Part shown: positions 6,032-34,835 of the stretch, in pieces
Position numbering within the stretch: position 1 is the first letter of the stretch
How the letters are laid out: the number at the start of each line of letters is the position of its first letter
From: Heliomicrobium modesticaldum Ice1
Lineage (GTDB): Bacteria > Bacillota > Desulfitobacteriia > Heliobacteriales > Heliobacteriaceae
Direction of reading: 5' to 3'
Length of the DNA: 64,000 bases
NCBI RefSeq assembly: GCF_000019165.1
Contig: NC_010337.2
Span: 2,595,501-2,659,500, forward strand
Made by a program: the position numbers and the translations under genes
Notes under the pieces: model-generated
Database searches by the model: none
What the model was told of the DNA's origin: nothing
The model's input: the letters and a program-made list of their open reading frames with translations, nothing else

Positions 6032-6148
6032 GCGATCACACTCCCTGCGTGTCTGATAGCTTCCCCTATTTATCATAATCCTTGATAGGTTTTTGCACAA
6101 ACGAAAATTTGACTAACCATTGAGAAATCATTGTTCGGGAAAAATCTC

Positions 6149-7893: not shown

Positions 7894-8739
7894 TTATGAT
7901 GATCGGATGGGTTGAGGCCGATGAGTGTTCTTTTCTATGTTGTTACGAAGCATAGCGAAATGGAGCATCGCCTCCAAGACACCACCGCCGATGGCCCGCG
8001 CTTTGTCACTGATGGTATAGCAGTAAGCCCTCTCCAGTCGGGGGTCGACATCGCCGATCTTCAGTCCAGCAGTGACGGAGATGCCATCCTTGACCAAACC
8101 GCGCACGATGCCGGCGATTTGCGCGTTGACCGGCTGACCATCCACCGTTCCCACCGACTCCCCTTTAGTGACCTGATCGCCAATTTCGCGACAAGCGGAA
8201 AATACACCTGACACAGGCGCGCGCAACAGCCGCTCCTGACGGTAGCCGCCCACTTCTCCCGGTATACCCGTATCGGCGATGGCATAGCCCTGATAGATCA
8301 CCCGACCAAGGTCATGACCGCGTTTTGTTTCCACGACGGCATGGACATCCTTCCCGGCGCAAAAGCCCGGACCCAAGGCGATCACGAAGGGCGCCTTGTC
8401 CTTGGTCAAACCGTCATTGCGTTTTCGTATCGTCGCTTCTACATAGTAGGTAGGCTTGAGGCTTTCCAGCGAACGGTCATCGGGATCGACGAGCACCGGA
8501 ATGACGCCCCGCTCCTGCCAGGCTATCGCCTCATCAGCGGTTTTGACCCGAAGGGCTTTCACGCCCTCCACCGTCGTCTCCCCCTGGTATACAGCTTCCG
8601 CAAAAGACACCCTTCGCCGGACGACAAGCGGTTCGGCCAATTCCGTCATAATCGGGACGACACCGCATTGGAAGAGCCGATGGGCGACGCCACTGGCCAG
8701 ATCCCCCGCGCCTTTAATCAACACCCGTTCTTGCTGCAT
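7894..8739 (-). CDS. yqeB: YqeB-type accessory protein of selenium-dependent molybdenum hydroxylases
   Basis: The product (281 residues from the ATG at 8739) matches the YqeB/EF2563 family, which co-occurs with selenium-dependent Mo hydroxylases and is thought to act in their maturation. An N-terminal Rossmann-like start (IKGAGDLASGVAHRLF) is followed by a conserved core (ALGPGFCAGKDVHAVVET, then RGHDLGRVIYQG) and a C-terminal GEVGGYRQERLLRAPV segment. The start at 8739 has GGGGGGAG just upstream. An ATG-less extension to 8769 is possible but has no ribosome-binding site. It is the last gene of the large purine operon, 52 bases after the XdhC-like gene. Confidence 0.88.
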   Translation of the reverse strand: MQQERVLIKGAGDLASGVAHRLFQCGVVPIMTELAEPLVVRRRVSFAEAVYQGETTVEGVKALRVKTADEAIAWQERGVIPVLVDPDDRSLESLKPTYYVEATIRKRNDGLTKDKAPFVIALGPGFCAGKDVHAVVETKRGHDLGRVIYQGYAIADTGIPGEVGGYRQERLLRAPVSGVFSACREIGDQVTKGESVGTVDGQPVNAQIAGIVRGLVKDGISVTAGLKIGDVDPRLERAYCYTISDKARAIGGGVLEAMLHFAMLRNNIEKNTHRPQPIRSS

Positions 8740-8791
8740 TCGACTCCCCCCACCGCTTCTGCATTCCATATCCTATATTCCCGTTGCCTGC

Positions 8792-9955
8792 TCAAACAGC
8801 CGTCACGGGTTCCAGCAGGACTTCCATAGTCCCGCCGCAGGCCATCCCCTCTTCCGCTGCCGCATCGTTATCTAAGGAAAAAGAGAAAAGCCCCGCAGCG
8901 CCTCCATCCAAAAGCAGGAGCGCCTCTCTCCGCGCCTCCGCCTCTATGCATCCCCCACCGATGGTCCCGCGCATCTGGCCGTCACGGAAAACCAAGAGCT
9001 TGGCGCCAGCCTTGCGCGGTGTCGACCCCCGCGCTTCCACCACAGTGGCAAGGACAGCCGAGGTACCTCGCCTGGCGCTTTCGACCAAGGTCCGCAACAG
9101 TTCCAAGTCCTGGACCGTAATCCCGGCGCCGCCTCTACCGCCTCTTCGCGCCTGGATCAACTGGGCAGCGATGCTGACGGCGATCTCCTCCGGCGTCTGC
9201 GCCCCGATGGGCAGACCGATGGGCATCTGCACCTGCTCGATGTCTTCCTCAAAGACGCCAGAAGCCCGCAGATGGTCTTTGATCAACTGAACGCGGCGTC
9301 GGCTTCCGAGCATACCGAGATAACCCAGCCGCTTCCCGACCAACGCTTCCAGGCAGCGGAGATCGTGGCGATGGCCACGGGTGATGATGGCGACGGCACA
9401 GCTGGGTTGCAGGTGTAGTTCCTCGATGGCCCGGACAAAATCGTTGCAAATCACCTTTGCCGCGCCGGGAAATCGCTTCGGTGCGGCAAAAGCAGGTCGA
9501 TCGTCGACGACGGTGACGCGATAACCCAGCATGACAGCGACAGGAACAAGTGCCTGGGAGACATGACCGCCGCCAAGGATGACCAACTCATCGGGGGGGT
9601 AAAAAGGTTCAGCGAGCAGCCGCGCCGCTTCTCCTTCTAAAGAAACCCTTTTGGAAACAACCCTGCCCGATTGCAGGGACGCCTCGGCGAGGGTAAGGGC
9701 TTCCTGCGCGAACAAGGGAGCAACCGCAAAAGACGCCAGGCCATTCACCTGACCGCTCGAGAAATCCTTCGCCTGATCGAACGGGGTCACCGAAAGGACA
9801 GGGATACAAGCGTCCATTGCAGCCCTTATCTCGGAATAAGACAAAAAACGCTTTCCCGCAACCCCTGAGCCCTTTTTCGCCTTTTCTTTTATCAGAGTGA
9901 GGACAACACAAGCCTCGCCCTGTTCCAACGTCTGGAGGACATCCTTATAAACCAT
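8792..9955 (-). CDS. XdhC/CoxI-type Mo hydroxylase maturation factor with repeated CoxI domain
   Basis: XdhC/CoxI proteins bind the molybdenum cofactor and insert it, often in sulfurated form, into hydroxylases. In this 387-residue protein the order is unusual. A degenerate CoxI-like N-terminus (about 1-110) comes first. It is followed by the XdhC Rossmann domain (GGGHVSQALVPVA, VDDRPAFA, TRGHRHDL, GMLGSRRR). A complete CoxI domain is at the C-terminus (ARGSTPRKAGAKLL and GGGCIEAEARREAL). Normal XdhC has CoxI first and ends with the Rossmann domain. The gene sits between the molybdopterin-binding gene and yqeB, consistent with maturation of the two hydroxylases upstream. AGAGGGA precedes the ATG. 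Confidence 0.88.
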   Translation of the reverse strand: MVYKDVLQTLEQGEACVVLTLIKEKAKKGSGVAGKRFLSYSEIRAAMDACIPVLSVTPFDQAKDFSSGQVNGLASFAVAPLFAQEALTLAEASLQSGRVVSKRVSLEGEAARLLAEPFYPPDELVILGGGHVSQALVPVAVMLGYRVTVVDDRPAFAAPKRFPGAAKVICNDFVRAIEELHLQPSCAVAIITRGHRHDLRCLEALVGKRLGYLGMLGSRRRVQLIKDHLRASGVFEEDIEQVQMPIGLPIGAQTPEEIAVSIAAQLIQARRGGRGGAGITVQDLELLRTLVESARRGTSAVLATVVEARGSTPRKAGAKLLVFRDGQMRGTIGGGCIEAEARREALLLLDGGAAGLFSFSLDNDAAAEEGMACGGTMEVLLEPVTAV

Positions 9956-10008
9956 TTTATCCCTCTGCCATTCACTGGATCACCAGCATCATTAAGAACC
10001 ATCGATGA

Positions 10009-18885: not shown

Positions 18886-19353
18886 TTACTTCTCTCTCAT
18901 CGCCTTTTCAGCCGCGTTGATGATGTTGTGATACCCGGTGCATCGGCACATGTGTCCGGAGAGTTCCTTTTTCAGCCCCTCCCGATCGCAGTGGCATCCC
19001 TTTTCAGTAAGCGCCGTCACAGACATGACAAACCCAGGCGTGCAGAAGCCACACTGGACGGCGCCTTCCTCAACAAAGGCCTTCTGTACCTTTGTCAACT
19101 GGCCCTCCTTAGCTTCACCCTCGATGGTGCGGATCGCTTTGCCGTCCGCCCAGACGGCGAGGAAGAGGCAGGAGTCGATGGCTTCACCGTCAACCAAGAC
19201 GGTGCAAGCGCCGCACTCGCCGACGCCGCAGCCTTTTTTCGTGCCCGTCAGATGGAGGCGGTTGCGCAGGACTTCCAAAAGGGATTCGCCTACTCCCACC
19301 TCAAGGGAGTGTTTCTGCCCGTTGACGGTACAGTCGATTCGCTTAGTCGCCAT
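18886..19353 (-). CDS. [2Fe-2S] subunit of a three-subunit Mo hydroxylase (xanthine dehydrogenase type)
   Basis: The 155-residue protein carries the four-Cys plant-ferredoxin motif (KKGCGVGECGAC, with the last Cys in DSCLF) and the second cluster in QCGFCTPG and HMCRCTGY. It would pass electrons from the Mo subunit to FAD. Its start overlaps the end of the FAD subunit gene by 11 bases. Family length is about 150-165, so it is complete. Confidence 0.95.
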   Translation of the reverse strand: MATKRIDCTVNGQKHSLEVGVGESLLEVLRNRLHLTGTKKGCGVGECGACTVLVDGEAIDSCLFLAVWADGKAIRTIEGEAKEGQLTKVQKAFVEEGAVQCGFCTPGFVMSVTALTEKGCHCDREGLKKELSGHMCRCTGYHNIINAAEKAMREK

Positions 19354-20236
19354 GGATGAGCCCCCCTGCCTGTTGAAAGGCCTTGACCAGCGCCTGTTTG
19401 CTCAGTTCCTTGGCCAGGTGAAGCCGGAATTCGCGGGAAGCCCGCCAGGAGGTGCGCGGGTTGATCTCGGCTGCTGCCGCGTTGCCGAAGGATTCCACCA
19501 ATTCCAGGCTGAAGGGTTTACCTTTGACAACTCCTTCCGCCTCGGGACAGCGGATCGGCGTCGGCGCGGCCACGCCAAAAGCGAGCCTCACATCAGCGAG
19601 GATGTTGCCCCCAGCTACCTTGCAGTTGACGGAACAGCCCAGGGTAGCGATGTCCATCGCCTTGCGCATAGCATATTTGATGTAGTGGCCGCCATAACCC
19701 TCATAGCTTTCGGGCGCAATAACGATCGCCGTAAGCACCTCGGCCGGGCCCAGGTTGACTTTGCCCGGTCCCCGATAGAACTGGTGGATCGGCGTCAATC
19801 GGATTCCCTTCGGCCCCTGGATCTGGAGGATTGCATCGAGGGCAAATAGGGTCGAAGCGCTGTCGGCCGATGTGGCGCCGTTGCAAACGTTGCCGCCGAT
19901 AGTGGCGACACGGCGGATCTGGGGACCGCCGACGGTGTCGACGGCTTCCGCCAGGACGGGAAGGCACTGGCGGATCAACGGGTCGGAGGCGATACGGCTG
20001 AAGGTGGCTGCCGCGCCGATGAAGAGCGTTCCGTCATCCTTCCGTTCGATGCGGGTCAACGCAGCGATATGGCGGATGCCGACCAAATGGGCCTCGGGCT
20101 GCTTGCCTTCGCGGATGCGGATCAGCACATCAGTGCCGCCGGCGATCAACCGGGCCTGGGGATTGGCCGCCAGCAGGGCCACAGCCTCGTCGACGGAGCG
20201 GGCTTCATCATATCGGGCGATGTCGAACACGGTCAT
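19343..20236 (-). CDS. FAD-binding subunit of the three-subunit Mo hydroxylase
   Basis: The 297-residue product belongs to the FAD-PCMH family of xanthine dehydrogenase medium subunits. Motifs include RLIAGGTDVL (FAD pyrophosphate binding) and VATIGGNVCNGATSADS. The C-terminal CO-dehydrogenase flavoprotein-like domain follows. Unlike some relatives there is no visible extra FeS-binding Cys cluster. It overlaps the Mo subunit gene by 4 bases and the FeS subunit gene by 11, so the three subunits are translationally coupled. Confidence 0.94.
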   Translation of the reverse strand: MTVFDIARYDEARSVDEAVALLAANPQARLIAGGTDVLIRIREGKQPEAHLVGIRHIAALTRIERKDDGTLFIGAAATFSRIASDPLIRQCLPVLAEAVDTVGGPQIRRVATIGGNVCNGATSADSASTLFALDAILQIQGPKGIRLTPIHQFYRGPGKVNLGPAEVLTAIVIAPESYEGYGGHYIKYAMRKAMDIATLGCSVNCKVAGGNILADVRLAFGVAAPTPIRCPEAEGVVKGKPFSLELVESFGNAAAAEINPRTSWRASREFRLHLAKELSKQALVKAFQQAGGLIHGD

Positions 20237-22527
20237 CCCTCCTTTTCGATCAGCCCTTCCGCCTGAAAGCGGGCGATCAGGCGCTGGGGTGTGAGCGGCA
20301 GGTCGTTAAAGGCCACGCCGGTGGCGTCAAGGATGGCGTTGCGGATGGCCGGCGCCGGCGTGATAGTCGGCGGCTCGCCCAGGGCTTTGTTGCCGTAGGG
20401 CCCTGTCGGCTCATAGGGCTCGACGAAATGAACGCCGATCTCAGGGGTGTCGAGGGCGGTCATCAGCTTGTAGTCGAGGAGGTTATGGATGAGGGGTTTT
20501 CCCGTCTTGGGGTCAAAGAGCATCTGCTCGTAAAGGGCGTAGCCGATCCCCATGCTGACACCGCCATGGACCTGGCCGGCAGCCAACTGAGGATTGATGA
20601 TCTTGCCAGAGTCGTGGACGTTGTGGATCTCCAGGACCTCGACCTTGCCCATCAACAGGTCGACCTCAACCTCGACGAAAGTGCAGCCGTAGGCAAAGGC
20701 GTTGACGCGAGCGTTGTTGGAGACATCGGCCGTAAAGGGTTGGCAATAGGCCGTGTTCGTGTGCGCGTCGAGGGCCACCTCGCCGATGGGCAGGATCCCT
20801 TCGCCGTTGTGCTTGTAGACGAGCCAGCCGTCGACGATGTCCATGGCGCCGGCCGGGATATCGGTCATACCCCAGGCATAGTCGAGGACCTTGGCCTTGA
20901 TCGCTTCGGCGGCCTTGCGCACGGCCATGCCGGTGATGTAGGTCTGCCGGGAAGCGTAGGAGCCCAGATCGACAGGCGAGATGTCTGTGTCCTGTTCGGA
21001 GAGGATATGGACCATCGAGGGGGGAATGCCGACTGTCTCAGCCACCATCTGGGTGAAAACGGTGTCGCTGCCCTGGCCGATCTCGGTAGCACCCACCTGA
21101 AGCTGGACCGAACCATCTTCATTCATGACGATCCGCGCGCCAGCCACCTCAAGGCCGACGGGATGAGTGCCTGAGGCGTAGGTGAAACAGGCTACGCCGA
21201 CGCCACGCCGTTTCGTCCCCTTCCGCCGGCTGGCGTCGGCTTTTTTGGCGTCCCAGCCGATGATTTCTCGGCCCTTTTGCAGGCACTCGGCCAAACCGTT
21301 GCTGAGCACCTTGACGCCGCTGATCGGATCCTGGTAACCGGTACGGATGATATTCTTCAGGCGAAAATCGACGGGGTCGATCCCCAGTTCCCGGGCCACA
21401 TCGTCCATATGGCTCTCTAAAGCAAACATGACCTGAGGGATGCCGTAACCGCGCATGGCCCCGGCGGAGGGCAGGTTCGTATAGACCGAGGTGGACTGAC
21501 ATTTGATCGCCTGCTGGGCGTAGAGCTGGCGGTACTTGGTGCCGGCGTTGTTAGCGATGGACTGACCGTGAGAGGCGTAGGCGCCGTTGATGGAGACGAT
21601 CTCCAACTCGCGCGCCAACAGGGTGCCGTCTTTTTTGACACCTGTCTTGATCTTAAAGGCGATGGGATGGCGCACCCGGGAGGCGATGAAGCTCTCTTCC
21701 CGGGTGAATTCCAGTTTGACGGGACGGCCATGGACGACGGTGGTGAGAAAAGCGACAAGCGGCTCCACGACAGCGTCCTGCTTGCCGCCGAAGCCGCCAC
21801 CTATGTAGGGTTTGATCACGCGAACGCGGCCCCAGGGGATGCCGAGGGCCTGACCAACGATCCGCCGGCAGATGTGGGGGATCTGGGTGGAAGAAACAAC
21901 GACGATGCGGCCGTTTTCCTCCATGTAGGCGTAGGCGCTGTAGTTCTCCATGGCGCAGTGGGCAACCATCTGGGTCGTGAAGGCGTCGGAAAAGACGCAG
22001 TCCGACTCGACGAAGGCCTGAGCCAGATCGCCTAATTCGTAACCGCCTCGCCCCAGCACGTTGCCCCTGCCGGCGTGGATCTCCGGCGCGCCCGCCTTGA
22101 GGGCTGCCTCGGCTGTCAACAGCGGTTCATACTCCTCGTATTCCACTTCAATCAAGGCCAATGCCTTTTGCGCCGTCAACTCATCGACGGCCACCACAGC
22201 GGCGATCTCATCACCGACGAGGCGAAGGCGGCGCGTCAACAGGTTGCGGTCAGCCACGTCCTGGTGAGCAGGATCCTTCGAGTAGGGATGGCCGGCCGTC
22301 GGGAAGGTGTGAGCGGGCACATCCGCATAGGTGACGACGGCGACGACGCCCGGCAGCGCCTTGGCCTTGCTGACGTCGATGCGCTTCACCCAGCCGTTGG
22401 CAATGGCGCTGCGAAAGACCTTGGCATAGAGCATGCCGGGAACAAAGTGATCGTCAACATATTTCGCGGCGCCTTTCACCTTGGCCACAGCGTCGACACG
22501 GGGGATGCTCCGGCCTACGCTTTTCAT
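20233..22527 (-). CDS. Molybdopterin-binding subunit of the three-subunit Mo hydroxylase
   Basis: The 764-residue large subunit has the XDH fold: GRSIPRVDAVAKVKG at the start, GGGFGGKQDAVVEP, GAMRGYGIPQ and the catalytic Glu region KALGEPPTITPAPAI. It hydroxylates a heterocycle using water at the Mo centre. The start at 22527 follows AAGGAGG by 9 bases. The frame extends 14 codons upstream without a better site. It is the first complete gene of the operon and follows the frameshifted small ORF by 29 bases. Together with the two downstream subunits it would make a purine (probably xanthine) dehydrogenase; the exact substrate cannot be fixed from sequence. Confidence 0.94.
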   Translation of the reverse strand: MKSVGRSIPRVDAVAKVKGAAKYVDDHFVPGMLYAKVFRSAIANGWVKRIDVSKAKALPGVVAVVTYADVPAHTFPTAGHPYSKDPAHQDVADRNLLTRRLRLVGDEIAAVVAVDELTAQKALALIEVEYEEYEPLLTAEAALKAGAPEIHAGRGNVLGRGGYELGDLAQAFVESDCVFSDAFTTQMVAHCAMENYSAYAYMEENGRIVVVSSTQIPHICRRIVGQALGIPWGRVRVIKPYIGGGFGGKQDAVVEPLVAFLTTVVHGRPVKLEFTREESFIASRVRHPIAFKIKTGVKKDGTLLARELEIVSINGAYASHGQSIANNAGTKYRQLYAQQAIKCQSTSVYTNLPSAGAMRGYGIPQVMFALESHMDDVARELGIDPVDFRLKNIIRTGYQDPISGVKVLSNGLAECLQKGREIIGWDAKKADASRRKGTKRRGVGVACFTYASGTHPVGLEVAGARIVMNEDGSVQLQVGATEIGQGSDTVFTQMVAETVGIPPSMVHILSEQDTDISPVDLGSYASRQTYITGMAVRKAAEAIKAKVLDYAWGMTDIPAGAMDIVDGWLVYKHNGEGILPIGEVALDAHTNTAYCQPFTADVSNNARVNAFAYGCTFVEVEVDLLMGKVEVLEIHNVHDSGKIINPQLAAGQVHGGVSMGIGYALYEQMLFDPKTGKPLIHNLLDYKLMTALDTPEIGVHFVEPYEPTGPYGNKALGEPPTITPAPAIRNAILDATGVAFNDLPLTPQRLIARFQAEGLIEKEG

Positions 22528-22556
22528 GGGCGCTCCCTCCTTCTTTGCGCTCTCTG

Positions 22557-22792
22557 CTACAACAACCATAAGATAGGTAGAACCAGATCGGGATCTGCGA
22601 TCTCCACCTCGATCATCAAGGCCTCGGCGATCGCCTCGGCCCTTTGCTGCACCGTCTCTCCAATGTCACCCAGCCGGCACCCCGCTTCATGCAATCACGA
22701 GCACGCTGATTGATCCTATCTATTAGACTTTCAGGCCCTTTTTTCCTGCACTGGTTCTCACAATCGTCATTGAAGGTTCTTCTATTCTTCAT
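22557..22792 (-). pseudogene. Small ORF of about 78 codons, broken by a one-base frameshift, heading the xdh operon
   Basis: From the ATG at 22792 the frame reads MKNRRTFNDDCEN and continues through RINQRARDCMK to about 22687. There it runs into the wrong frame. Shifting by one base near GCTTCAT (22684-22690) restores a protein-like sequence: AGCRLGDIGETVQQRAEAI, then EVEIADPDLVLPILWLL and a stop at 22557. The 236 bases between start and stop are one short of 79 codons, as expected for a single deleted A. It could be a real mutation or a sequence error. Family unknown. It lies only 29 bases upstream of the Mo subunit start. Confidence 0.45.
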
Positions 22793-22890
22793 ATCTACGC
22801 ATCTTCATACTTACGCAAAAACCGCGCCAAGGGATGTCTAAAAAAGAAGCTTTGTTTTTCATGAATGCCTGTCGTCAGAGTCGATGATCT

Positions 22891-22899
22891 TGGTATAAT
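22891..22899 (+). promoter_or_regulatory. Extended -10 promoter element facing right
   Basis: TGGTATAAT is a perfect extended -10 (TGnTATAAT). Depending on where the IS begins, it drives the transposase or is the original ygfK promoter now cut off by the insertion. No good -35 is visible. Confidence 0.4.
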
Positions 22900-23061
22900 T
22901 TTTGCATTACATAAGATTGCTAGAGTCTGTCTAAAAACCCCCTCAAGAGAGGGCAAAAAGCAAGACGTTTTTATATGGAAATTGGTGGAATTTAAAGGGA
23001 ATTCGACTCTTCGCGTCGAAGGATATAGGTACAAAGACTGTTTATAGCGAGGCGATGTACC

Positions 23062-24684
23062 TTGTTTCGATTCGATGTGGACCCCCAAGTTAGCTTTTAC
23101 GACTTTGCAGCCCTCTGGGACCAACTTGTGCCTGCCGATTCCGTCTTTCGCCTGTTTCGTGAATTGGCGCCCCTATTAATACAACCGGAGGATTTTACAG
23201 GTCTCTATTGCCTTGACAACGGACGTCCCAGTCATGCGGCCCGGCAGATGACGATGGCCTGCATGTTACAGGAAATGCTGGGCGAAACAGACCGGGGGAT
23301 GGAAGCACAGACACGTGTGAACATCGAGGTCAAGTTTGCGTTAGGAATGGCCCTCGATGAACCGGGCATTGATCACGCCAATTTTGGCGTCCACCGGCAA
23401 CGGCTCATCCAAAAGGAACTTGATAAGGTCTATCTCGATCGCTTTATCCGGTTGATGTACTACCTGGGCGTTTTGACAGGGAAAGAACCTTGGATAACGG
23501 ACACGACCCATGTCATAGCTCCCATCAGTGCCCCCACGACCATCGAACTGATCCGCCAAGCCATGCGCCTGTTGGTGCGTCTTTTGGCGAAGCAATACAG
23601 TGTTCCATGGCATGCAATCCCCCATGCCCCTCGGGCGGTACGTTACCTGGAAACAGTGACGGAAGTGAAAGAGCATAACCTGGACGATAAGGCCAAAATG
23701 GAACGGCTTGTTGAAGTGGTCAGCGAGGCTGACGAACTGCTGGCCTACGTGGAGTCATCGGAGGCTTCGTGGAAGAAGAAGCCCGATGTCATTCATTACG
23801 CCCTTTTGCTTTGCCGTATCCTCCGTGAACGAATCATTCGGAAAGATGATGGAACTCTTGAGATAGCCCCCGGCGGTTCTGTCAAAGATATGATAGTTTC
23901 GGCTGTAGACAGCGAAGCCCGTTTCGGTTGTAAGGGCAAGACGAAATGGCGCGGGTATAAGATGGCCATCGTCGAAGTCGGAAATTCCGGATTTATCGCC
24001 GCCGCCGAGGCCATGAAAGCCAACGACTATGACGGCTCCAGTCTGGTGCCGTTAGCGGATCAGCTTCCCACCGATTGTGTAGAAAACCCGACGATCATTG
24101 GAGATACCCACTATGGTGCGGGCGATGACCGTGTCACCCTCAAGGAAAAAGGCATTGACGTAGTGGCGCCACTTTCACCAAAGACAAAATGTGATATCCT
24201 CGCGGGCGAGGGATTTCAAGTTTCCGAAGACCAAACACAACTGATCTGCCCGAGAGGAAAAGTCATCACCACCTATTCGGAAGTGGCAGATGGGAAGAAC
24301 TTCGTGCTTCGCGCCAAGGACCATGATTGCAAGCACTGCCCTCGTTACACGACCTGTTTTAAAGAAAAGAAACATCGGCGCACGATTTTTATTCACAACG
24401 CCTATGGTGTCATGCTCGAGGCGGCAAAGCACTCCCAAACGAAAATCTATAAGGAACAGATGCGTCTTCGCAGCCGCATCGAAGCCAAGCAAAATGAACT
24501 GGTCAACCGTTACGGACTGCGCCGGGTTCGCCGTATCGGAAAACGAAATCTGGCTTATGCCGCCCGGCTCAGCGCGTTAGCGGCGAACTTTCAAAAACTC
24601 AACCGTCTACGAAATGATAAGAATGCAACCATGGTGTTGGAGGTGAGTGCCTTACGCGGTGTTGCTTTCAAAAAAGCCGCATAA
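23062..24684 (+). CDS. IS1182-family transposase (DDE type)
   Basis: The 540-residue product has the family layout. The N-terminal domain includes the GRPSHAARQMTMACML segment, followed by a conserved HANFGVHRQRL region. The catalytic core starts at WITDTTHVIAP (first Asp) and continues with GDTHYGAGDD. A C-terminal Cys-containing segment (CKHCPRYTTCFKEKKH) and the KQNELVNRYGLRRVRRIGKRNL end complete it. The start is TTG at 23062, with GAGGCG upstream. No frameshift or internal stop is seen, so the element could still be active. Confidence 0.93.
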   Translation: MFRFDVDPQVSFYDFAALWDQLVPADSVFRLFRELAPLLIQPEDFTGLYCLDNGRPSHAARQMTMACMLQEMLGETDRGMEAQTRVNIEVKFALGMALDEPGIDHANFGVHRQRLIQKELDKVYLDRFIRLMYYLGVLTGKEPWITDTTHVIAPISAPTTIELIRQAMRLLVRLLAKQYSVPWHAIPHAPRAVRYLETVTEVKEHNLDDKAKMERLVEVVSEADELLAYVESSEASWKKKPDVIHYALLLCRILRERIIRKDDGTLEIAPGGSVKDMIVSAVDSEARFGCKGKTKWRGYKMAIVEVGNSGFIAAAEAMKANDYDGSSLVPLADQLPTDCVENPTIIGDTHYGAGDDRVTLKEKGIDVVAPLSPKTKCDILAGEGFQVSEDQTQLICPRGKVITTYSEVADGKNFVLRAKDHDCKHCPRYTTCFKEKKHRRTIFIHNAYGVMLEAAKHSQTKIYKEQMRLRSRIEAKQNELVNRYGLRRVRRIGKRNLAYAARLSALAANFQKLNRLRNDKNATMVLEVSALRGVAFKKAA

Positions 24685-24702
24685 GGTGCAAGGGGGAGAT
24701 CT

Positions 24703-24733
24703 GCCCTTTTTGAGGAAAATCCTCAAAAAGGGC
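24703..24733. terminator. Perfect hairpin after the transposase gene
   Basis: GCCCTTTTTGAGGA pairs exactly with TCCTCAAAAAGGGC over a 3-base loop. It would stop transcription leaving or entering the IS, in both directions. Confidence 0.65.
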
Positions 24734-24865
24734 CGGTGAGACCGATAAAAAGACTCTAGTTTTTTGCTGTTTGTATTAAAAAATCATGCTTTTGCAAGGG
24801 CTGGCTAGGGAATTTGCTTATTTTCTAGACGGCCTCTGCTACCTTTTTAACAAGGAGGGGATCCC

Positions 24866-27800
24866 GTGGGTGACATCATGCGACCGGTTCCGCTGAAAGA
24901 ACTGGTCTACCGTGCCTTCCAGGAGTACGCAGCAGATGGTTCCGTCTTTGCGCTTCCGGAAGCACACTTTTTCCGCAAAAGCGGAGAGCAAACCCTTCGC
25001 CTCTTCGGCGAAACATGTGAGACCCCGTTGGGACCGGCGGCAGGCCCGCACACCCAACTGGCTCAGAACATCGCCACGTCCTACCTGGCCGGCAGCCGCT
25101 TCATTGAGTTAAAAACGGTTCAAGAAAAAGAACCGTCCGTAGAAAAGCCCTGCATCGACGCGGAAGATGAGGGGTTCAATACGGAGTGGTCCTCCGAATA
25201 CCCCCTTGAGAAGGCCTTCGCCGAATACATCAAGGCCTGGGTGCTGCTGCACCTGCTGGAGGAGGCCTTTGAATTACGAATCGGGAAAGCGCGCTCTTTT
25301 ATCTTCAACATGAGCGTCGGCTACAACCTGGCAGGGATCCAGTCGCCCCGCATGAACGCCTTCATTGACGGGCTGATGGACGCCTCCGACCATCCCCTTT
25401 TCACAGCAGCGCTCCGAGACCTGGACGATTTGCTGAGGGAAGGGAACTTTTTACAGGGCACCGGCCTGGAACATCGTCTGTCGGCGCTGCAATCCCTGCC
25501 CGAAGGCATCTCGCCTCGGATCTGCAAGTCGGTCACCCTCTCGACGATGCACGGCTGCCCGCCCGAGGAGATCGAAAAGATCTCTGTCTACATGCTGACG
25601 GAGAAAAAATTGGAGACCTATGTCAAGCTGAATCCGACGCTGCTCTCCTACCCGGTCGTCCGGAACATCTTAGATACCCTCGGCTTCGATTATGTCGCCC
25701 TCTCTCAGACGTCCTTCGACCATGACCTGCAATACAAAGACGCCATTCCCATGCTGAAGCGGTTGCAGAAGCTGGCGGCCAGCCGAGGGCGCTTCTTCGG
25801 TGTCAAACTGACGAACACCCTCGGCACCGTCAACTTCAAGGGTCGCCTGCCCGGCGGCGAGATGTACCTGTCCGGCCGTGCCCTCTTCCCGATCTCGATC
25901 CATCTCGCCGCCAAAATCTGCAACGACTTTGCCGGGGAACTGCCTATCTCCTTCTCGGCAGGGATCAGTGAACATAACGTGGCCGAGGTCTTCGCCACCG
26001 GCATCCGGCCGATTACAGTGGCAACAGAGTTGCTGAAACCGGGCGGCCATGCCCGCATGGCGGCCATGGCTGTCCAGCTCGAAGCCATCGATGACTGGGA
26101 ACTGACCAAGATCGACCCGGCCAAGGTCGCAGCTCTGGCGGCCAAGGTCTTGGAGGTCGATTACTCCAAAAAGCGTTTCCGCAGCGGCGCCAAGGCGTCC
26201 ATCGCCTCCGAACTGCCTCTTTTCGACTGCGCCGAAGCGCCCTGCCAGGCGGCTTGCCCCATCCACCAGGATGTTCCCGCCTATATCCGCCTCGTCGGCC
26301 AGCAACGCTACGCCGAGGCGTTGGCGCTGATCTATGCGAAGAACCCATTACCGTCGATCACCAGCCATATCTGCGACCATGCCTGCCAGTATCACTGCAC
26401 CCGCCTCGATTATGAAGGCTCTGTGCTGATCCGGGAAATGAAGCGAATCGCTGTGAAAAAAGGCTTCAGTGAATATAAAGAAAAGTGGATTCTTCCAGTA
26501 AAGAGGCATACAGCCAAGGTAGCCATCATGGGTGCCGGCCCCGCCGGTTTGGCCTCAGCCTACTTCCTGGCCAGAGAAGGCTTCGCTGTGACCGTCTTTG
26601 AACGACGCGAATCAGCCGGCGGCACCGTCCGCCACATCATCCCGCGCTTTCGCATCAGTGACGAGGTGATCGACGCCGATGTCCGCTTCATCGAGGAACA
26701 GGGCGTGAAGTTTGTCTTCAACGCCTCGCCTGATCTGACGCCGGCTGCGCTGCAATCGATGGGCTACGCCTATGTCGTCGTCGCCGTCGGCGCGGGAGCG
26801 GAAAAGGATTTCCCCATCGCCGGGTTGTCCGGCTTCGATTCCGCCAATAGCGATAATGCCGTCGGTTCTATCGATTCCGTAGAAGCCCAAGCGGTCAGAG
26901 CCGTCGCTGGTGCCGGTGCGAAGGCCGAGCAAAAAACTGCCCTTCCCCGCATGATGTCGGCCCTCTCCTTCTTAGAACATTTCAACCGCAATCCGGCATC
27001 CCTCCGCCTCGGCAAACAGGTGGCTGTCGTAGGCGCGGGCAATACGGCCATGGACGCCGCCCGCACGGCCCTAAGGCTCCCCGGTGTAGAAAAGGTTACC
27101 GTCATCTACCGGCGAACGGAAAAAGAGATGCCGGCCTACCGGGAAGAGTACGAACTCGCCCTGGCCGACGGCGTCGAATTTCTTTTTTTGATGAACCCTG
27201 AAGGCGTTGACGGCGACGGCAATCTCCTCTGCCGAGTGATGCGACTCGGCGCGCCTGACGCCAGCGGACGCCGCCGCCCTGAAAAAACGTACGAGGTAAA
27301 GGCGCTGCCGATAGATACGCTGATCACCGCCATCGGCGAAACAATCGATATGGAACTCCTCGCCAAGTTGGGCCTGGCGCAAGGAAAAACGGCAGAGCCG
27401 CAGACGAATAAGTCCACCTGCGCCACCTCGCTGCCCGGTGTTTATCTTGTAGGCGACGCCTCACACGGACCCTCCTCCGTTGTCAAGTGCATCGCTGACG
27501 GGCGCAGAGCTTCTGACGCCATCTGCCGGGCAGAGGACCCTGCCTGGAAACGGGCATCCTTTATCTTCGGCCCTGCCGATGAAGATACGGTCAAAGCGAT
27601 CACCGCTAAAAAAGGAGGCCTCATCGCCCAATCAGACGTGCCGGCCGAGGCTGGATCTGAGGTGGACCAAAACGTCGGCGCCAGGGAGTTCCGTCGCTGT
27701 CTCGAATGTAGCAGCGTCTGCAACAAGTGTGTCGAGGTCTGTCCGAACCGGGCCAACATCGCAGTGCCGGTGGAAGGCGCGGCAACGGGATTCCGCAACC

Positions 27801-28120
27801 GCTTCCAGATCGTCCACCTGGACGCCTACTGCAATGAATGCGGAAACTGCGCCACCTTCTGCCCTTGGGACGGCCGGCCCTATAGAGACAAGCCGACCCT
27901 CTTCAGCCTGCGGCAGGACTTCGAGGCCAGCCGAAACCCCGGCTTTTTCGTAGAAAACGATACCGTCTATGTACGGGTGAGAGACGTTATGCGCACTTTC
28001 CCCTTGGTTGACGGCAGCTTCCAAGTCGATGACGGCGACGCCGCGCTAACCCGCATGGAAGTGATTTTTGCGGTCCTCTATGGCAAACGCCCCTCCCTCT
28101 TTGGACGCGTAATCGAATAG
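24866..28120 (+). CDS. ygfK: YgfK, putative selenate-reductase-like FeS flavoprotein
   Basis: A 1084-residue multidomain oxidoreductase. Residues 1-430 form a dihydropyrimidine/dihydroorotate-dehydrogenase-like barrel region (PLGPAAGPHTQLAQNI, SVTLSTMHGCPPEE). Next is a glutamate-synthase-beta-like FeS domain (CAEAPCQAACPIHQDV, about 452). A FAD site (GAGPAGLASAYFLAREG, about 556) and an NADPH-type site (VVGAGNTAMDAARTA, about 712) follow. The C-terminal FeS segment has CLECSSVCNKCVEVCP and YCNECGNCATFCPW (about 944-1000). YgfK accompanies SsnA and the hydroxylases in the urate/purine cluster and is a likely electron partner for them. The GTG start follows AAGGAGG by 7 bases and sits 35 bases from the outer IS repeat. 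Confidence 0.93.
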   Translation: MGDIMRPVPLKELVYRAFQEYAADGSVFALPEAHFFRKSGEQTLRLFGETCETPLGPAAGPHTQLAQNIATSYLAGSRFIELKTVQEKEPSVEKPCIDAEDEGFNTEWSSEYPLEKAFAEYIKAWVLLHLLEEAFELRIGKARSFIFNMSVGYNLAGIQSPRMNAFIDGLMDASDHPLFTAALRDLDDLLREGNFLQGTGLEHRLSALQSLPEGISPRICKSVTLSTMHGCPPEEIEKISVYMLTEKKLETYVKLNPTLLSYPVVRNILDTLGFDYVALSQTSFDHDLQYKDAIPMLKRLQKLAASRGRFFGVKLTNTLGTVNFKGRLPGGEMYLSGRALFPISIHLAAKICNDFAGELPISFSAGISEHNVAEVFATGIRPITVATELLKPGGHARMAAMAVQLEAIDDWELTKIDPAKVAALAAKVLEVDYSKKRFRSGAKASIASELPLFDCAEAPCQAACPIHQDVPAYIRLVGQQRYAEALALIYAKNPLPSITSHICDHACQYHCTRLDYEGSVLIREMKRIAVKKGFSEYKEKWILPVKRHTAKVAIMGAGPAGLASAYFLAREGFAVTVFERRESAGGTVRHIIPRFRISDEVIDADVRFIEEQGVKFVFNASPDLTPAALQSMGYAYVVVAVGAGAEKDFPIAGLSGFDSANSDNAVGSIDSVEAQAVRAVAGAGAKAEQKTALPRMMSALSFLEHFNRNPASLRLGKQVAVVGAGNTAMDAARTALRLPGVEKVTVIYRRTEKEMPAYREEYELALADGVEFLFLMNPEGVDGDGNLLCRVMRLGAPDASGRRRPEKTYEVKALPIDTLITAIGETIDMELLAKLGLAQGKTAEPQTNKSTCATSLPGVYLVGDASHGPSSVVKCIADGRRASDAICRAEDPAWKRASFIFGPADEDTVKAITAKKGGLIAQSDVPAEAGSEVDQNVGAREFRRCLECSSVCNKCVEVCPNRANIAVPVEGAATGFRNRFQIVHLDAYCNECGNCATFCPWDGRPYRDKPTLFSLRQDFEASRNPGFFVENDTVYVRVRDVMRTFPLVDGSFQVDDGDAALTRMEVIFAVLYGKRPSLFGRVIE

Positions 28121-28224
28121 TCATTGCGCAGATCTGGCAAAGGCCTGTAGTCGTTATTTACGACAGAATAATCAACACACTGAACATGCAACGCCAAAGT
28201 GAGGATCAAAGGAGGCACAGACCC

Positions 28225-29556
28225 GTGATCCTACTCAAAAACGCCACCATTGTCGAGTTCCAACCGCCGAGCGTACGAACGGGTATGGACATATACATCT
28301 ACGGAACAGAGATCATGGCCGTCGGCGCCGATCTCTCAGGGACTTATGACGCCGAACGGGTCCTCGATCTCAAAGGCGCTCTCGTCATGCCCGGCATCGT
28401 CTGCAGCCACAACCACTTTTACTCGGGCCTGTCCCGGGGAATTCTGGCCCGCATCAAGCCGAGCCCTGACTTCATCTCGGTATTGAAAAACCTCTGGTGG
28501 CGTCTCGACCGGGCTATCGATGAGGAGATCCTCTACTACAGCGGCCTCATCTGCTCCCTGGAGGCCATCCGTTGTGGGACGACGGCCGTCATCGACCACC
28601 ATGCCTCACCGAACTTCATCGGCGGTTCCCTCTCCGTGCTCAAAGCAGCTTTCGAAGAAGTGGGCCTCCGGGGAATCACCTGCTATGAGACGACCGACCG
28701 CAACGGCGGACTCAAAGAGGTGGAAGCCGCCGTCGAAGAGAACGTCGCCTTCGCCAAAGGCTGTGAAAAAGACCGGCAGATGGGGAACGGCCACTACCTG
28801 GTCGAAGCTATGATCGGCGGCCACGCGCCGGTGACGATGCCCGACGAAGCGCTCCGGCTGATGGCCGAGGCAGTCAAAGAGACCAGCCGCGGCATTCACG
28901 TCCATGTGGCTGAGGATCGTTATGACGTGTCTCACTCACACCACCGCTACGGAAAAGACATCATCGCCCGCCTGCACGATTTCGGCCTGATCAATGACAA
29001 GGCGCTCCTCGTCCACGGCGTCCACCTCTCTGACGACGATGTGCGCCTGATCAACGAAAAAAACGCCTACCTGGTCCATAACGCCCGTTCCAACATGAAC
29101 AACAACGTAGGCTACAACCACAAGATCCCACAGTACCAAAACCTCGCCCTCGGCACTGACGGCATCGGCAGCGACATGTTTGAGGAATTCAAATTCGCCT
29201 TTTTCAAACACCGTGACGCCGGCGGCTGCCTCTGGCCAGACCGCTTCCTCAAGTTTCTCTACAACGGCAACGACCTGCTTGAGCGCTATTTTGGCGCCCG
29301 CTTCGGCAAGGTGGAAAAGGGGTATAAGGCTGACCTGACCATTGTGGATTATGAATCCCCCACCCCGCTCGTTACCGATAATATCGCCGGACACATCGCC
29401 TTCGGCATGGATTCGAAGGATGTGAAGACAGTCATCGTCAACGGCAAGATCGTCTTAGAAAACCGGGAGTTCCTGAAGGATATTCAACCAATCTACGAGA
29501 AAGCCAAGAGAGCAGCCACTCGGCTCTGGGCACGAATGGACAGCTTAACCGATTGA
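28225..29556 (+). CDS. ssnA: SsnA, amidohydrolase/aminohydrolase of the purine cluster
   Basis: Metal-dependent amidohydrolase-superfamily enzyme, SsnA branch, which resembles guanine/aminopurine deaminases. The 443-residue product shows metal and active-site segments CSHNHFYSGLSRG, IDHHASP, HVHVAEDRYD, LVHGVHL and GTDGIGSD. The GTG at 28225 follows AAAGGAGG closely and gives the family length. The frame opens at 28186, but that start has no ribosome-binding site. It follows ygfK by about 100 bases and is closed by a strong terminator, so ygfK-ssnA is a two-gene unit. Confidence 0.92.
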   Translation: MILLKNATIVEFQPPSVRTGMDIYIYGTEIMAVGADLSGTYDAERVLDLKGALVMPGIVCSHNHFYSGLSRGILARIKPSPDFISVLKNLWWRLDRAIDEEILYYSGLICSLEAIRCGTTAVIDHHASPNFIGGSLSVLKAAFEEVGLRGITCYETTDRNGGLKEVEAAVEENVAFAKGCEKDRQMGNGHYLVEAMIGGHAPVTMPDEALRLMAEAVKETSRGIHVHVAEDRYDVSHSHHRYGKDIIARLHDFGLINDKALLVHGVHLSDDDVRLINEKNAYLVHNARSNMNNNVGYNHKIPQYQNLALGTDGIGSDMFEEFKFAFFKHRDAGGCLWPDRFLKFLYNGNDLLERYFGARFGKVEKGYKADLTIVDYESPTPLVTDNIAGHIAFGMDSKDVKTVIVNGKIVLENREFLKDIQPIYEKAKRAATRLWARMDSLTD

Positions 29557-30702: not shown

Positions 30703-30748
30703 GTCGAGACGACTCCCTTCTTTTTGAGTTTCGGGAAGCCGTCTCGAC
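30703..30748. terminator. Inverted repeat between the membrane protein gene and the acetate carrier
   Basis: GTCGAGACG at 30703 pairs with CGTCTCGAC at 30740, with a 28-base loop and CTTTAT following. It is a weak terminator for the upstream gene or a protein-binding palindrome just upstream of the carrier promoter. Confidence 0.45.
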
Positions 30749-30777
30749 CTTTATACCGCCTGCGGTCCAACACCCCC

Positions 30778-30806
30778 TTGTCTTGCGCCCCTTTTTCCTT
30801 TACAAT
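30778..30806 (+). promoter_or_regulatory. Sigma-A type promoter of the first acetate carrier gene
   Basis: TTGTCT and TACAAT are spaced by exactly 17 bases, about 53 bases before the ATG at 30859. Confidence 0.6.
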
Positions 30807-30858
30807 CAAGCAAGCGTTAGTTCTCACGAATAACAAGAATCCAGACAGGAGGCTCACC

Positions 30859-31515
30859 ATGTCCACCGAAACCAAGCACGTTGAAACGAAAATCACCGTT
30901 GCCGACCCGACTGCCCTTGGCGTCTTCGGCCTCGCCATGGTCACCTTTGTGGCCTCGACGCAGAAGCTGGGCTGGACCAGCGGCGTCTCTGCTCTCGTTC
31001 CCTGGGCCCTCTTCCTCGGCGCCTTGGCCCAAGTGATCGCCGGCATCTTTGACTTCAAAAAGAACAACTACTTCGGCGCTACTGTCCTCACCGCTTACGG
31101 CCTCTTCTGGTTCTCTGTCGCCATGTCCTGGGCGATCACCCTAGGCTGGCTGGGTCCCGAATTCAAGGCTGCCTTCAGCAGCGTCCAACTCGGTTGGGGC
31201 TTTTTGGGTTACTTCATCTTCTCCCTCTTTATCATGATCGCTTCTTTTGAAACCAACAAAGTCTTCGCCGCCATCCTGGTGTTGATCAATGTGTTGCTCC
31301 TCTCCCTGGCCCTGACGGCCTTCCAGGTGATCGACCTCCACGCCGTAGCCGGCTGGTCCGAATTTGCCATCTCCATCCTCGGTTTTTACGCCGCCGGTGC
31401 CTTCTTCCTCAACAACTTCTTCGGTCGAACCATCCTCCCCCTCGGCGCCCCCTTGGGCTTGATCAAAAAAGGTCCCGCCAATGTGAAGGTCATCAACAAC
31501 CGCCGCCCTGCTTAA
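30859..31515 (+). CDS. Acetate uptake/exchange carrier, GPR1/FUN34/YaaH (SatP) family, copy 1
   Basis: The 218-residue integral membrane protein has six hydrophobic helices. It opens with the family signature region just before the first helix (ADPTALGVFGLAMVT) and has FDFKKNNYFGATVLTAYGLFW in the middle. Relatives move acetate and sometimes succinate with protons across the cytoplasmic membrane. The ATG at 30859 follows CAGGAGG. A longer frame from 30724 has no ribosome-binding site and covers the promoter. A second copy lies at 34173-34835. Confidence 0.9.
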   Translation: MSTETKHVETKITVADPTALGVFGLAMVTFVASTQKLGWTSGVSALVPWALFLGALAQVIAGIFDFKKNNYFGATVLTAYGLFWFSVAMSWAITLGWLGPEFKAAFSSVQLGWGFLGYFIFSLFIMIASFETNKVFAAILVLINVLLLSLALTAFQVIDLHAVAGWSEFAISILGFYAAGAFFLNNFFGRTILPLGAPLGLIKKGPANVKVINNRRPA

Positions 31516-34172: not shown

Positions 34173-34835
34173 TTGTCGAACGAAGCGAAATCCATTGAAA
34201 CAAAAATTACTGTGGCCGACCCGACCGCCCTTGGCGTCTTCGGCCTCGCCATGGTCACACTGGTCGCATCGAGCCAGAAACTGGGCTGGACCACCGGCGT
34301 CTCCGGCATCTTCCCCTGGGCCATCTTCCTTGGCGCCCTGGCCCAGTTTATCGCCGGCATGTATGACTTCAAAAAGAACAACTACTTCGGCGCCATCGTC
34401 TTGACATCCTATGGGTTGTTCTGGTTTGGCGTCGCCACGTCCTGGGCGATCACCCTCGGTTGGATGGGTCCCGAGTTCAAAGCTTCCTTCAGCGGTGTCC
34501 AACTCGGCTGGGCTTTCCTCGGCTACGGCATCTTCTCATTCTTCATCATGATCGCTTCTTTTGAGACCAACAAGGTCTTTGCAGCGATTTTGGTGCTGAT
34601 CAACCTGTTGCTCGCTTCGCTCGCCTTGACGGCCTTCCAGGTTGTCGACCTTCACCTGGTCGCCGGCTGGTCTGAATTCGCGATCTCCATGCTCGGTTTT
34701 TACGGCTGCGGCGCTATCTTCCTGAATACCTTTTTTGGACGCACCGTTCTTCCCCTTGGCGCTCCCCTCGGGCTGATCCGAAAAGGACCGTCGATCACCG
34801 AAGCTAACCGGCAAAAAACGCGCCAGGCCAGTTAA
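34173..34835 (+). CDS. Acetate uptake/exchange carrier, GPR1/FUN34/YaaH (SatP) family, copy 2
   Basis: 220 residues, six hydrophobic helices. It is almost identical to copy 1 through the first 130 residues (ADPTALGVFGLAMVT, DFKKNNYFGA, SWAITLGW) and shows the same ending (LPLGAPLGLI). The start is TTG at 34173, 8 bases after GGAGG. The first and last 15 residues differ between the copies. The duplicated pair suggests acetate exchange matters to this organism, or that the copies are expressed under different conditions. A group II intron has entered 105 bases after the stop codon. Confidence 0.9.
   Translation: MSNEAKSIETKITVADPTALGVFGLAMVTLVASSQKLGWTTGVSGIFPWAIFLGALAQFIAGMYDFKKNNYFGAIVLTSYGLFWFGVATSWAITLGWMGPEFKASFSGVQLGWAFLGYGIFSFFIMIASFETNKVFAAILVLINLLLASLALTAFQVVDLHLVAGWSEFAISMLGFYGCGAIFLNTFFGRTVLPLGAPLGLIRKGPSITEANRQKTRQAS

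Follow-up and report, generated by a model that had tools for sequence, protein, structure and literature searches.

The E. coli protein YgeV is described as a putative sigma-54-dependent regulator, and has been renamed IsrR in enterohaemorrhagic E. coli (PMC9426417). An RpoN site is listed in the E. coli ygeV-ygeW region (PMC8743547). In the Clostridiales, the DioR group of sigma-54 activators has targets that include dpaL-pyrC-argE, pbuX and ygeW-ygfK-ssnA-ygeY (Nie et al. 2019, PMC6615313); that 2019 regulon study, which is cited in PMC11448449, lists the function of DioR as unknown. YgfK, SsnA and YgeX are presented as steps of the reductive urate pathway, with YgeX as its last enzyme (PMC12507026).

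Here we analyzed a 64,000-nucleotide stretch of the Heliomicrobium modesticaldum Ice1 genome (the window), which carries genes of this kind. Directly upstream of xdhA lies what we read, with a probability of about 0.93, as the pseudogene stub of a YgeV-like sigma-54 activator, in a cluster that keeps most of its enzyme genes and has lost its dedicated activator. The features at this site are as follows.

20233 to 22527, minus strand: xdhA (Mo subunit), intact, above the cut-offs of NF007426 and NF043082, with its ribosome-binding region kept.
22557 to 22694, minus strand: 45-aa ORF MHEAGCRLGDIGETV...ILWLL, which reads the stub and then the former regulator-xdhA spacer.
22581 to 22582, no strand: deletion junction; positions 8095-9999 of locus L024 (from the relative G001) have no counterpart here.
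22582 to 22676, minus strand: sigma-54 activator stub, identified by tblastn and blastn against the relatives G001, G002, G004 and G008 and by codon comparison.
22616 to 22792, minus strand: 58-aa ORF MKNRRTFNDD..., which begins in leader DNA, reads the stub out of frame and is not a conserved gene.
22690 to 22763, minus strand: conserved leader block, shared by this genome, G001 and G002 ahead of the regulator.

The initial annotation had taken the two ORFs for one coherent 78-residue protein broken by a single-base slip. Both overlapping minus-strand frames are present, and the distance from the first start to the last stop (22557-22792) is indeed of the form 3n-1, at 236 nt or 3x79-1. Such a joint length is expected one third of the time for two unrelated frames, and short ORFs are common locally, with 71 ORFs of at least 40 aa overlapping positions 19000-29000. 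When the joined query was searched in 61 genomes (this one and 60 others, E≤0.1), it matched in 27, the own genome included. Outside the own genome, strong matches ended at residue 72 and mostly began at residues 41-42, which is the extent of the stub, and they lay at the beginning of frames of about 588-659 codons; one of them, in G024, has three stops listed inside it. Strong protein homology was thus limited to the second frame, and no match among the 27 genomes was a short protein spanning both halves. The weak rows off this pattern were leader DNA (residues 9-30 in G001 and 2-43 in G002) and matches in G039 (38%) and G017 (28%) that are probably chance.

The genomes of the relatives show what the stub belongs to. 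Four of the eight same-genus or same-family relatives match it (G001, G002, G004 and G008), while G003, G005, G006 and G007 do not; XdhA was likewise found only in the first four and not in the others (E≤1e-50). Thus, every xdhA-bearing relative has an intact regulator, and the combination of stub and xdhA occurs only here. In all four (loci L024-L027) the intact gene lies directly upstream of xdhA in the same orientation, within the order ssnA, ygfK, [ygeX], regulator, xdhA, xdhB, xdhC and on. The ygeX gene is present in three of these loci and absent in L024, and it adjoins the regulator in all nine short loci from relatives (L015-L023). The initial annotation had proposed looking at the proteins encoded upstream of xdh in relatives, and this long regulator gene decides against the joined protein.

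The intact G001 and G002 proteins carry Sigma54_activat, AAA+ lid, GAF_2 and HTH_8 domains above the Pfam cut-offs, with the AAA+ sigma-54 interaction domain (PF00158) at 248.4 and 245.1 bits (cut-off 20.2) and the C-terminal Fis-type HTH (PF02954) at 43.2 and 43.9 bits (cut-off 22). GAFTGA is the loop motif of sigma-54 activators; the loop in the intact regulators reads GSFTGA. None of the 25 of 30 matches inspected for each intact protein reached an NCBIfam cut-off, so the assignment as a sigma-54 activator rests on the domains and not on an NCBIfam name. A further scan of contigs for the regulator gave at least 80 loci, none of the 80 listed being titled heliobacterium, and neighbors were compared for 23 of them (L034-L056). 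In ten of the listed loci (L034-L042 and L056) the match spans almost the whole regulator, and clear pathway genes lie nearby in four of these (L035, L038, L039 and L041); the neighbors of L034 and L056 include just a partial YgfK-like match of about 30%. Separately, two class-level relatives carry a second activator paralog, 46-47% identical, shortly before an xdhA homologue (G009:C20 4510-6276 and G011:C3 2101394-2103157).

The stub holds codons 3-33 and two bases of codon 34, out of about 587. Without AAA+ and HTH domains, the remnant does not qualify as a sigma-54-dependent enhancer-binding protein, and we expect no functional product from it because the roughly 32 of 587 codons left end well before the GAF domain does (residues 5-138). 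The stub differs from G001 by 3 nonsynonymous and 13 synonymous changes, and G001 from G002 by 1 and 12, numbers too small to judge decay. Two points speak against the pseudogene reading: the stub itself shows no clear decay, and the species is represented by one genome, known from its assembly alone, so an assembly error is possible. A search of the own genome for an ortholog of the regulator at another place gave nothing at E≤1e-120, a threshold passed in five of the eight other genomes searched.

Alignments with the relatives place the break precisely. The left blastn alignments end at 22582 with all four relatives, and the right alignment begins at 22581 (G001), 22549 (G002) or 22528 (G004 and G008). 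The window is collinear with G001 on both flanks, positions 22914-22582 running up to L024 8094 and the sequence from 22581 resuming at L024 10000. The deletion therefore measures about 1.9 kb, and codon 34 is now joined to DNA 54 nt before the xdhA start codon. Since the G001 regulator occupies L024 7994-9757, everything from codon 34 onward and a 242-nt spacer are missing here, and the 54 nt upstream of xdhA are kept. The regulator start codon and codon 2 are also missing; G001 and G002 have extra bases at that place, together with their starts, and the start of the 45-aa ORF is a chance TTG. Compared by eye with G001, the junction has no clear microhomology. A literature search on the species together with xanthine dehydrogenase or pseudogenes, which turned up the genome papers PMC9147875 and PMC7143216, showed no description of this deletion.

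The IS element that the initial annotation had noted next to the frames lies ahead of ygfK.

22923 to 24836, plus strand: IS1182-family element of 1914 bp (NF033551), with a TGCTA duplication at 22918-22922 and 24837-24841.
24866 to 28120, plus strand: ygfK (TIGR03315; 1326.7 bits, cut-off 835.3), starting 29 nt after the IS.

At least 31 near-full-length IS1182-family copies are present in the genome, the window copy included (40 of 52 candidates scored), and their near identity suggests a recent expansion. Among ten copies compared, eight have an exact 5-bp duplication, one (L122) is one base off and one (L119) was not scored.

Might the two frames nevertheless be a cluster-specific small protein of about 78 residues, with a one-base frameshift or a sequencing error? 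Apart from the joint length of 3n-1, the point in favor is that the leader DNA of G001 and G002 has a comparable frame that stays open for about 20 codons (...GNQCRKKGP.G.IDRDNSSCS*). That frame has no matching ATG, however, and it meets a stop and never joins the regulator; the MKNRRTF... half aligns with this leader DNA, including the strongly conserved block 22763-22690, and from its sequence we read it as leader. The second half belongs to the N terminus of a protein of about 587 aa, and none of the relatives has a homologue that continues across both frames. At the supposed slip near 22687, relatives have not one extra base but tens, among them the regulator start codon, and the short A run blamed for it is only an AA pair. 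Nothing reached a curated cut-off when both frames and the join were compared with Pfam and both frames with NCBIfam. A Lambda_CIII match of the first frame in Pfam (E 0.035, 14.6 bits against a cut-off of 25.7) was taken as chance. We thus consider a frameshifted small protein extremely improbable. That the IS1182 element caused the truncation, for which its closeness would speak, is also very improbable: the deletion junction lies 341 bp from the IS end, and the element is flanked by an exact 5-bp duplication of its own, which means that no adjacent DNA went missing along with it. On the grounds of this separation and the intact TGCTA duplication we rejected a deletion by the IS, whose insertion is independent of the deletion. 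What the initial annotation had right, then, is that something is broken just ahead of the Mo subunit, and a regulator was among its guesses; the size of the component and the kind of break did not hold. The object is of an ordinary kind, the deletion remnant of a regulator gene, previously misread as a frameshift.

We also looked at the leader block as a possible RNA. Rfam gave three matches in window positions 20000-29000, all elsewhere and far below the gathering scores, and none at the gathering threshold in the four relatives, so at these thresholds the block belongs to no described RNA family. The start of the block (22737-22757) has two 20-nt look-alikes in the genome (95%, E 0.028; G000:C1 1462594 and 625993), both just after a transposon-like ATPase gene; they may be chance.

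Two promoter-like sites lie between ygfK and the former regulator.

22814 to 22830, minus strand: -24/-12 (sigma-54) like site TTGGCGCGGTTTTTGCG, pointing toward the regulator and xdhA, or toward ygeX in the relatives that have it.
22890 to 22906, plus strand: promoter-like site TTGGTATAATTTTTGCA, pointing toward ygfK; sigma-54-like and also of the extended -10 type.

The first scores 11 of 13 here and 12 of 13 at the same place in all four relatives. The ygfK-directed site, present in five of five loci at 10-11 of 13, fits both a sigma-54-like and a sigma-70-type (extended -10) reading, and here the IS1182 element separates ygfK from it. A divergent pair of -24/-12-like sites therefore lies between ygfK and ygeX or the regulator in five of five loci. 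Across the window, sigma-54-like sites at 10 of 13 or better number 12 against 11.5 expected, which is chance, and those at 11 or better number 4 against 1.8 expected (largest of 20 simulations, 6); with scores at chance, the control-site argument rests on conserved position only. In the spacer between regulator and xdhA, no sigma-54 site with the invariant GG/GC and at least 7 of 13 was found in any of the four relatives. Direct control of xdhA by the activator is therefore no more than possible, and we do not claim that xdhA had such a promoter.

Palindromes of the TGTCTCA/TGAGACA type, a candidate operator, occur upstream of xdhA in four relatives and of the permease in three. Their positions are L024 9777 and 9965, L025 8893 and 12738, L026 6164 and 9929, and L027 6676 and 10442, some of those in L025-L027 being the ones upstream of the permease. 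All of those in L024, L026 and L027 fit the strict pattern, which has no occurrence in L025, in the E. coli region or in the window. Allowing up to 3 mismatches gives 3 in L024, 4 in each of L025, L026 and L027, and 3 in the window (at 6110, 9827 and 57457).

Most of the pathway is still encoded. XdhA, YgfK, the IS1182 transposase, a selenium-dependent xanthine dehydrogenase, D-hydantoinase, carbamate kinase, YgeY, SsnA, YqeB and YqeC score above NCBIfam cut-offs in the window, and XdhB and XdhC were identified by E. coli similarity (47% and 54%). Among the genes used to recognize a reductive urate cluster (PMC12507026), YgfK (Se_ygfK), SsnA, YgeY, hydantoinase and carbamate kinase are present, and a carbamoyltransferase occupies the YgeW position with scores of 178-187 bits, below the YgeW cut-offs (453-500). 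At E≤1e-20, YgeX was found in four of nine genomes and not here or in G001, G003, G005 and G010. The cluster permease is 84-100% identical in G002 and G004, and this genome and G001 have only a 35-36% paralog. YgfK is longer here, at 1084 aa, than in three relatives (1055, 1054 and 1047 aa), and the ygfK stretch at about 26834-26941 aligned with none of the four relatives. Elsewhere in the window, 30724-31515 and 34173-34835, 3 kb apart, encode predicted proteins that closely resemble each other and share ...ETKITVADPTALGVFGLAMVT..., likely a duplication.

Against G001, dN/dS is 0.058-0.134 across eight genes, in a comparison whose G001 and G004 xdhA ranges ran a few codons past the stops. Changes unique here versus unique to G001 are 48:11 in YgfK, 12:0 in YgeY and 10:0 in the YgeW-like protein (uncorrected p 1e-6, 5e-4 and 2e-3), and 13:14 in XdhA, 5:3 in XdhB, 1:1 in XdhC, 5:3 in carbamate kinase and 11:6 in SsnA.

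These observations are consistent with the following model. An ancestor carried a gene for a YgeV-like sigma-54 activator of about 587 aa (GAF, AAA+, Fis-type HTH), which was oriented like xdhA and opposite to ygfK, and a deletion of about 1.9 kb took codon 34 onward and the 242-nt spacer, the start codon going as well. We infer that the activator turned on the purine and urate genes through the conserved -24/-12-like sites; given that role, the cluster would have lost this control. The purine-breakdown genes here have thus probably lost their usual switch, with the consequences for expression deduced from the genes. RpoN (sigma-54) is present in the genome. Other activators might substitute, which argues against a loss of control: PF00158 exceeds its cut-off at ten places in the genome, four of them strong, and apart from the stub the regulator strongly matches four sigma-54 activators of this genome (37-48% identity), with alignments that start no earlier than residue 150. 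A weaker own-genome match (31%) covers residues 10-113 and falls elsewhere, in a frame of 214 codons.

An alternative to silencing is adaptive rewiring, in which the xdh genes, now behind the leader of the former regulator or ygeX, would be expressed without purine sensing. The intact xdhA, xdhB and xdhC (dN/dS 0.06-0.11 against G001), the lack of excess changes in xdhA on this branch and its retained ribosome-binding region are what one would expect of it. However, the minus strand from 22500 to 22920 has no sigma-70-type promoter-like site, the site pointing to xdhA is sigma-54-like and would need an activator, and the excess of unique changes in YgfK, YgeY and YgeW fits relaxed constraint; we regard rewiring as possible but unlikely. 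A rather doubtful further reading is that the control layer has been dismantled around mostly intact enzymes, the shortened pathway now running without regulation to scavenge nitrogen and carbamoyl phosphate and ending at 2,3-diaminopropionate. The losses behind it are the activator and the xdhA spacer with its palindromes, both deleted, ygfK cut off by the IS, and YgeX and the cluster permease, neither found. The pathway of G001, which lacks YgeX and the permease and has kept the activator, may also stop at 2,3-diaminopropionate. On the preferred reading as an activator stub, the locus holds no new small xdh protein and no frameshift, which corrects the earlier interpretation, and it offers a natural example of the loss of a YgeV-like activator. 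Purine-dependent expression here, compared with intact relatives, would directly test the control of this activator over the reductive urate pathway.

Among known systems, PrdR (NF041552), the proline reductase regulator, is the best NCBIfam match of the G001 and G002 proteins (451 and 443.8 bits); we rejected this identity, as the scores are far below the cut-off of 795 and the match begins only at residue 135. The DioR group acts on the same kind of target genes, a likeness by target list alone, and xdhA is not named among the targets in the part of that study concerned (PMC6615313). The intact G001 protein resembles YgeV of E. coli K-12, with 37% identity across 590 aligned positions. The E. 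coli ygeV gene sits between xdhC and ygeW and points away from ygeW, whereas in heliobacteria the regulator gene precedes xdhA in the same direction. As in E. coli, it belongs to an xdhABC-ygeW/X/Y-ygfK-ssnA cluster; unlike E. coli YgeV, it survives here as about 32 codons.
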